NCBI RefSeq assembly: GCF_003813775.1
Contig: NZ_RPDH01000003.1
Span: 682,001-746,000, forward strand
Length of the DNA: 64,000 nucleotides
Direction of reading: 5' to 3'
Origin: Chitinophaga lutea
GTDB taxonomy: Bacteria > Bacteroidota > Bacteroidia > Chitinophagales > Chitinophagaceae
Shown here piece by piece: positions 35,532 through 39,283 of this stretch (positions within the stretch are counted from its first letter, which is position 1; each line of letters starts with the position of its first letter). Below the pieces are notes generated by a model. That model saw only the letters and a list, made by a program, of their open reading frames with translations. It made no database searches and was not told where the DNA came from. The position numbers and the translations under genes were made by a program.

Positions 35532-35536
35532 GTTTG

Positions 35537-35646
35537 AACGAAGCTTCAACGAAGCTTCCCTGGGAGATAAACGAAGGATCACCGAAAAGTTGATCCTTCG
35601 TTGGAGGTTCGTTGATCCTTCGTTGAAGGTTCGTTGATCACCCTGG
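35537..35646. repeat. 11-bp-period palindromic repeat array A
   Basis: Ten consecutive 11-bp units can be laid in register. The first half repeats AACGAAGCTTC (35537, 35548) and AACGAAGGATC (35570); the second half repeats GATCCTTCGTT (35592, 35614), GGAGGTTCGTT (35603) and GAAGGTTCGTT (35625), the inverted form. In the middle a 12-bp perfect stem (AACGAAGGATCA, 35570-35581, with TGATCCTTCGTT, 35591-35602) closes a 9-nt loop. It starts 6 bp after the bshB1 stop. Confidence 0.9.
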
Positions 35647-35677
35647 TGACCCCCTGCCGACGCGTTGTTCACCAGGG
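35641..35677. repeat. Inverted repeat with 9-bp arms
   Basis: CCCTGGTGA (35641-35649) and its perfect complement TCACCAGGG (35669-35677) flank 19 bp. It directly abuts array A. Confidence 0.7.
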
Positions 35678-35729
35678 GTCTGAAAACCGCCGTGGGAGGG
35701 CGTTGTAAGCGGAAGGTGTGGGGAGCGGG

Positions 35730-38488: not shown

Positions 38489-38514
38489 TTCGGCTTTACT
38501 AATCATACTGCAAT

Positions 38515-38545
38515 AAAGCTGTTCGCAATGCGGACGGCTTTTTGT
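38515..38545 (+). terminator. Intrinsic terminator after the DUF4295 gene
   Basis: AAAGCTGTTCGC pairs with GCGGACGGCTTT through several G-U pairs, followed by TTTTTG. Confidence 0.75.
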
Positions 38546-38989
38546 GTTTTGGAGAATGGCGGGAGTTTTACAGCTATCTGCCGGTTGCGCCGGGAAATAT
38601 TCGCGGGACGCCGTCCATTTGGGGCGGCATCCGGCATTTAAGGGTGGGTATAGGGTGGCAGGGCTTGGTGACTACCCAGGCAGCCCGCGGCTGCCGCCCC
38701 CCAAAGCATACACACCGATAGCCGGTTACGCCCCCACGTGCCCTTTGACTACCCGGCACCTGACCAGGGGTCGAAAAAACAGGGCCTACTCAATAGTGTG
38801 GCAGCGCAAAAGGAAAGCCAATATCATTTGAGCCAGTGAGCCCTGCCAGCGTCAATTACAGGCACTGTAAAGTGCCTGTTGTATCGAACCGCAGGGTCAG
38901 TGCAGCAAATCCTGTTTCCTCCCCGTAAAGTCCCCAGGCGCGGCGAAATCGGTCGAAATCCTTACTGTGTCTGTGTTTCAAGGGGGTTT
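38546..38989. other. Gene-free GC-rich stretch
   Basis: About 440 bp with no supported gene. It has short near-repeats (GACTACCC at about 38669 and again at 38747) and several small hairpins. No RNA family was recognised. It continues into array B. Confidence 0.5.
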
Positions 38990-39092
38990 AAGTACCTATG
39001 AAGTACCTGTTAAGTACCTATGGAGTACGTATAAGGTACCTTCTATACAGATAGCTCAAAGGTGCCTTATAGGTACTTAACAGGTACTTTAT
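38990..39092. repeat. 11-bp-period palindromic repeat array B
   Basis: AAGTACCTATG, AAGTACCTGTT, AAGTACCTATG, GAGTACGTATA and AGGTACCTTCT follow one another at exact 11-bp steps (38990, 39001, 39012, 39023, 39034). After a ~22-bp centre the inverted form appears as AGGTACTTAAC and AGGTACTTTAT (39071, 39082). The stretch 39001-39021 is perfectly complementary to 39069-39089, giving a 21-bp inverted repeat. The unit sequence is unrelated to array A, but the architecture is the same. Confidence 0.9.
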
Positions 39093-39207
39093 CCCTGCTC
39101 AAACCCAATGGTATCAAGGGATTGCGCGTATTCTGCATCGCGTTTGGCGGTTTGGCGGAGGCGATGGCAGGGGCGAATATTTTTACCCGTCAAATCCTGA
39201 ATAACGC

Positions 39208-39215
39208 TACATTTG
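39208..39215 (+). promoter_or_regulatory. Bacteroidota -7 element (TACATTTG), candidate ftsY promoter
   Basis: An exact TAnnTTTG match 68 bp before the ftsY start codon, after a terminator and array B, so ftsY probably has its own promoter here. Confidence 0.4.
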
Positions 39216-39283
39216 TAACCTGCTTCCGGAAACAGGCAGTTAACCGCCTCCGGATGGCTAAATCACATTGTAATTGACTTTGT

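Follow-up and report, generated by a model that had tools for sequence, protein, structure and literature searches.

The 64,000-nucleotide stretch of Chitinophaga DNA analyzed here (the window) contains, by our own gene calls, an intergenic region upstream of an ftsY-like gene, whose product we take to be FtsY, and within that region lies an array of direct 11-bp units followed by a run of the same unit in inverted form (array B). The nearest named relatives of the source genome are likewise Chitinophaga. The GTAC cores of the five direct units lie at 38992, 39003, 39014, 39025, and 39036, in exact 11-bp steps. A repeat search recovered the array as a 22-nt copy family with spacings of 11, 11, and 11, and Tandem Repeats Finder reported positions 38990-39041 with both period 11 (score 62) and period 22 (score 69). 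The long inverted arms (38984-39041 and 39049-39106) are 74% complementary and include a perfect 21-bp reverse-complementary pair. Folding of the array B strand gave z = -7.06, with 0 of 200 shuffles as good. The window's other strong period-11/22 row in Tandem Repeats Finder is array A (35589-35639), whose unit is unrelated in sequence to that of array B. An earlier note had described array B in just these terms, as exact 11-bp steps followed by the inverted form with a perfect pair, set in a gene-free stretch and built of a unit unlike that of array A, and each of these points was borne out. A CRISPR array was considered and rejected for this locus, as it consists of 11-bp units devoid of unique spacers rather than 24- to 48-bp repeats with unique spacers. 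Both arrays have the short word ACCAGGGGTC(T)GAAAA in their vicinity (38763-38785 and 35666-35690).

Table 1. Features of the window around arrays A and B
Feature	Position	Strand	Basis or remark
Array B, five direct 11-bp units (consensus TTAAGTACCTA; GTAC core)	38988..39042	+	Core positions, repeat search, Tandem Repeats Finder
Array B inverted run, about three units	39061..39094	-	39069-39089 pairs perfectly with 39001-39021
B element, approximate extent, used as query	38984..39106	.	Four more genome copies and one in congener G032
Array A, family A member	35535..35662	.	25 sites found with array A as query
Intergenic region containing array B, 795 bp	38489..39283	.	Own gene calls
Gene downstream of array B, 320 aa	39284..40246	+	ftsY-like

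Period 11 in the genome and among relatives

Regions were counted for each period by 33-bp lag identity over a threshold. The main scan covered 1.6 Mb of the 6.6-Mb genome (C3 1-800 kb, C2 1-400 kb and 780-1020 kb, and C1 1-160 kb), the C2 780-1020 kb block being chosen for its known B copies. With the threshold set at a lag identity of ≥0.75, period 11 accounted for 16 regions and period 22 for 9, and none of the remaining periods between 5 and 30 exceeded 2; raising it to ≥0.80 left 11, 4, and 0, respectively. Another scan, over periods 5-25 in 400 kb each of C3 and C2 plus the window (864 kb in total), at ≥0.70 yielded 7 regions at period 11, 6 at period 22, and at most 2 elsewhere. The possibility that arrays A and B are the only ones in the genome, which would have told against the earlier note, is thus set aside, and its proposal that architecture rather than sequence is the common factor stands: period 11/22 is prominent genome-wide and recurs with unrelated units.

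Among congeners, 400 kb of G012 gave 4 regions at period 11, 2 at period 22, and no more than 1 elsewhere (≥0.70). In 400 kb of G032 there was no period-11 array, and the one period-22 region there resembles the terminal part of a coding sequence; G032 nevertheless carries one B-type element outside those 400 kb. The 22 named near relatives (451 kb) had 6 regions each at periods 11 and 22, together with 9 at period 7 and 7 at period 8, and 58 further relatives (1.01 Mb) had 37 at period 7, 22 at period 8, 8 at period 11, and 9 at period 22. Period-11 dominance is therefore a property of the source genome and G012; it does not extend to the whole family and is not universal within the genus. 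Arrays of periods 7 and 8 are favored in other genera (L109-L166; e.g., L154 1113-1338, L134 5462-5676, and L124 8956-9165), and some of these have an inverted counterpart nearby, as though phased or slipped repeats formed a second, parallel class there. Two Flavihumibacter species have in common an orthologous five-unit period-11 array (L112 9000 and L115 8292), which is presumably followed downstream by ribosomal-protein genes. The number of units is 4 or 5 in 43 of 48 period-11 arrays, but period-7 (51/66) and period-8 (42/43) arrays cluster likewise under the same rule, and this length was rejected as a signal.

Dispersed copies, orthologous sites, and a leader module

Copies with the same unit share homology that is sharply bounded over 110 to 280 bp, and we therefore regard them as dispersed MITE/REP-like elements. 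Two B copies share 122 bp at 90%; the bounded homology measures ~120 to 130 bp in D and H, 110 to 160 bp in G, and 250 to 280 bp in a subfamily of A, and copies differ by one whole 11-bp unit. Across the whole genome, five unit types account for 55 distinct sites (A, 25; C, 11; D, 7; G, 7; B, 5), a count obtained with one-copy queries that misses some sites (e.g., type A at C3 84899) and excludes C and D matches of ≤36 bp and two A matches with E > 0.1. A few more sites come from unit types H, I, J, and K and from an r176-like type, and the units differ completely between types. All 24 array rows of the source genome (23 regions) are intergenic by our gene calls, and 9 of the 24 lie between convergent genes, compared with 90 of 717 intergenic regions of >60 bp. 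An inverted run of the unit was present within 130 bp in 19 of these 24 rows and in 31 of 48 rows overall, versus ~20 to 21% with shuffled units, and some arrays show little or no inverted run. Of the 46 neighboring proteins, 30 were scanned against Pfam; 26 of these were assigned a family, and they are enzymes, transporters, regulators, and other proteins unrelated to one another. No transposase was found among the 30. The best reading of these data is that array B belongs to a dispersed, non-coding Chitinophaga repeat superfamily of ~110 to 280 bp, with 4 to 5 direct 11-bp units, to which the elements in most cases add a shorter inverted run of their own unit.

When used as a query against 60 genomes of the genus (E ≤ 0.001), the B element matched three: its own genome, G032, with a true B-type element at another place, and G002, with a 29-bp match and no array. 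The whole 795-bp region, searched in 79 genomes, matched at the ftsY-like gene only in G012, over 117 bp that do not include array B. For 5 of the 24 rows, both flanking genes could be located in 400 kb of G012. At 2 of these 5 orthologous intergenic sites, G012 also has an 11-bp array, built of a different unit (ACGAACCTTCA versus GATGGGATATG and ATACGCCACCT versus TCTCCTTCGCT), and at the first of the two the flank that immediately adjoins the array is recognizably alike in both species. The expectation that the step is kept while the unit changes between relatives thus holds at two sites, and at the other three (H and the window's arrays A and B) G012 has no array. Two such coincidences in five sites look unlikely by chance, because arrays occur in 23 of 446 intergenic regions of ≥150 bp; as both sites are convergent, a setting in which arrays are commoner, we grade this as moderate evidence.

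The flank common to both species at the first of these sites led to a ~50-bp module, the leader. A sequence-only model of it, searched against the source genome with 150 of 1,227 initial candidates scored, gave at least 28 matches at E ≤ 1 and 17 at E ≤ 1e-3, the latter representing 15 distinct sites. Thirteen of these 15 have an 11/22 array within 260 bp downstream (L345 and L350 do not), and an array lies on the upstream side in 1 of the 17 matches (L354). With the 6 seed sites set apart, 7 of 9 non-seed sites have an array, as against 2% of random intergenic windows at that score (P about 4e-11). The unit types that follow the leader number at least seven (A, C, G, H, J, K, and r176-like), and the leader also adjoins arrays in Chitinophaga sp. 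YR627 and G012. No leader is detectable in families B and D or in most A copies, and in the window neither array has one nearby, the best match there (E = 0.096) being kilobases away. It is conceivable, if improbable, that the leader directs a system by which short 11-bp arrays are written or renewed, and that it stays in place as the entire array behind it gives way to one with a new unit, always at one per turn, the agent being a slippage- or telomerase-like polymerase or phased DNA-binding recombinases with shifting specificity.

Several further observations concern the flanks. At G000 C1 1872309-1872652 (L356, L358, L360, L361, and L365), about five leader-like tandem units of ~77 bp each precede an 11-bp array. 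In G012, at C8 157494 and C1 1186689 (L333 and L336), the leader is followed by long arrays of period 11 whose unit is of the CCTATATCCTA type, and these arrays adjoin r176-type elements. When flanks were compared between families, one case was clear: families I and D (C2 945853 and C3 332001) share a 33-bp flank, identical at 28 of 33 positions, beside different units, and this flank is better conserved than the adjoining unit. A k-mer count over 21 unit types recovered no single universal flank motif; the motif GCTGGT..GGGTTTC adjoins several arrays but was rejected as diagnostic, since many of its listed matches have no array.

Comparison with known repeat systems

A search of the open-licence literature recovered no description of 11-bp arrays in Chitinophaga. 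Prokaryotic MITEs and small dispersed repeats include RUP, NEMIS, ERIC, Bcr1, and RU (PMC3733652). The Chitinophaga elements resemble them in size (~100 to 300 bp), in being non-coding and intergenic, in their many copies, and in their inverted symmetry; they are indeed short, non-coding, and dispersed in intergenic DNA. Unlike MITEs, they have as their body an 11-bp phased array whose unit varies between subfamilies; no target duplication was found for them at the A, D, and G ends, and no partner transposase among the 30 neighbor proteins or in the genome-wide search for PF01797. As to terminal inverted repeats, 19 of the 24 arrays have inverted runs of their unit, which show no defined termini, and an inverted end motif is visible by eye in some B copies. 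The ends of the homology, where the true ends are uncertain, showed no excess of shared words indicative of target-site duplication in A (16 copies), D (5), or G (7). REP elements, dispersed intergenic palindromic repeats with RAYT transposases, are also treated in PMC3733652. The Chitinophaga elements are similarly dispersed, intergenic, and palindromic, but they are longer and made of 11-bp units. The genome-wide search for PF01797 (the RAYT-type Y1 transposase), the only transposase family searched at that scale, gave 0 matches at E ≤ 0.1, compared with matches in 8 of 14 control genomes, and a RAYT partner was accordingly rejected.

The cyanobacterial STRRs are intergenic direct repeats of fixed unit length. 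Heptamer repeats (TAACTGA repeats and long simple sequence repeats [LSSRs]) are intergenic, have a fixed unit, and occur sporadically, including in some Bacteroidetes (PMC4679880). The Chitinophaga arrays agree with both in being intergenic, in repeating directly a unit of fixed length, and in their sporadic distribution, and the favoring of one unit length genome-wide that marks the STRR/LSSR class was found in the source genome and not in the 400 kb of G032. They differ in their period of 11, their 4 to 5 imperfect units, their inverted run, their bounded dispersed copies, and their leader; birth in place of the STRR/LSSR type is contradicted by the bounded copies with shared flanks and by the leader. 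Finally, parC of plasmid R1 consists of clusters of 11-bp direct repeats bound by multimeric ParR, according to PMC9426499. It has 11-bp direct repeats in common with the arrays, and protein binding is known for the R1 case; in contrast to its one plasmid site beside partition genes, the arrays occupy dozens of chromosomal sites, and no parM/parR operon was found beside them among the 30 of 46 neighbor proteins scanned. The arrays are best read as a variant of the dispersed small repeats.

Conservation within the unit and the basis of the 11-bp pitch

Alignment of 22 family A copies revealed 40 invariant columns, mostly in ACGAA/TTCGT cores. In the other half of the unit, variation consists mostly of G/C and A/T swaps, the spacer pattern being SSWWS in 114 of 154 cases and SSWSS in 32. 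Swaps make up 62% of the differences in family A, versus 27.5% in all of the orthologous DNA of two species and 29.8% in its non-coding part by our gene calls. Across 28 families or single arrays, 33 of 60 unit positions with a second base seen at least twice are swaps (p = 4e-5); positions with a single deviating unit show 25 of 87, the neutral share, with no excess. This across-family count includes both orthologous Flavihumibacter arrays and leaves out four doubtful rows of 48 (C2a 134298, L105 4561, L161 454, and L089 4006), as well as C3 657453, which is the inverted run of another array. Over whole elements the signal is uneven: the share of between-copy columns that are swaps is 19/47 in r176, 13/41 in C, 9/23 in G, and just 5/36 in D. 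Since the copies are related, the events in these counts are not independent. Base-specific contacts are made in the major groove, and contacts that sense only base-pair class or shape are made in the minor groove. As a base-pair class is kept half a turn away from an invariant core in an 11-bp unit, we infer a protein reading one face of the DNA, and the unit pattern fits a protein reading duplex DNA turn by turn better than it fits an RNA hairpin or intrinsic curvature.

Were the arrays transcribed, their long hairpins might serve as terminators, mRNA stabilizers, or small RNAs, and the folding of array B, the commonness of inverted runs, and the preference for convergent regions are all in keeping with such a role, array A folding less well (z = -3.23). 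Selection on RNA pairing would favor steps from G-C through G-U to A-U and leave covariation. The consensus hairpin of family A nevertheless has no covariation support in its 22 copies (covariation term, +0.12), arm words covary in some arm pairs only, 4 to 6 of the 22 copies break pairs at most of the variable hairpin positions, and G/C and A/T swaps dominate rather than G-U steps; the arrays with little or no inverted run also speak against it. Rfam searches at gathering score found nothing in the window, and a scan of 15 loci (E ≤ 1) gave 15 matches, all below that score. We therefore regard a structured RNA as improbable. The lack of covariation, its restriction to some arm pairs, and the dominance of swaps likewise tell against hairpin templating as the driver, which had been suggested together with slippage. 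Another account holds that selection acts on a bend in the helix, which a unit of any kind would produce when repeated at every turn; it is consistent with a period near the helical repeat and with units of any sequence. In wedge-model predictions, however, the bend of 27 real units was not above that of shuffled ones (mean percentile, 0.42; 10 of 27 above 0.5; the five rows dropped from the swap count and the ortholog L115 were left out), and we give intrinsic curvature very little credence.

The main rival is a purely mutational origin, in which DNA synthesis slips in 11-nt steps and folds back to give short arrays whose ends are inverted, and the arrays are copied and drift, with no binding function. 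The slippage that the earlier note invoked is supported to the extent that turnover in 11-bp steps is seen in copies differing by whole units, and the periods of 7 and 8 in other genera look as if the step were lineage-specific. A heptamer preference linked to the polymerase has been proposed before, as reported in PMC4679880. Against this, many arrays are bounded copies of each other rather than independent births, the invariant cores of 22 diverged copies with class-only variation elsewhere point to constraint, and the leader association also speaks against it. On balance, we consider a mutational origin alone rather unlikely.

We instead favor, at about even odds (roughly 0.5) for the explanation as a whole, a superfamily of phased protein-binding sites. 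In this view, a DNA-binding protein bound along one face of B-DNA, at one site in every helical turn, would hold the pitch at 11 bp. It would recognize individual bases in part of the unit, putatively through the major groove, and base-pair class only in the remainder, by way of the minor groove or of DNA shape. A separate variant of the protein would serve each unit type; turnover of units would proceed through 11-bp slippage or through exchange between copies, and a putative mobilizing enzyme, perhaps the DNA-binding protein itself, would spread the copies. The protein, the mobilizing enzyme, and a benefit to the cell are what we infer here. Periods of 7, 8, and 11 recall arrays bound by ribbon-helix-helix proteins (omega, MetJ, and ParR). 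This protein-binding explanation draws on the period 11/22 bias, the bounded dispersal, the intergenic location, the varied units on one architecture, the different units at two orthologous sites, the leader across at least seven types, and the half-unit pattern of family A. It is weakened by the uneven swap signal, the lack of a singleton excess, the 400 kb of G032 devoid of a period-11 array, and the patchy leader; in addition, no protein of that kind, transposase, or target duplication was found among the 30 neighbor proteins, in the genome-wide PF01797 search, or at the A, D, and G ends.

In these elements, pitch and layout are kept and sequence is not, such that grouping repeats by sequence would split or miss the class. 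The recurrence of approximately one unit per helix turn (11 bp) across differing sequences suggests that something reads the arrays turn by turn. Should the pitch be maintained by a protein, a single genome would provide a natural collection of phased sites with many different binding specificities; should a polymerase maintain it, the arrays are a direct handle on the origin of fixed repeat lengths (7, 8, and 11 in this family). Either answer would make testable the old question of why a bacterial lineage favors one repeat length.
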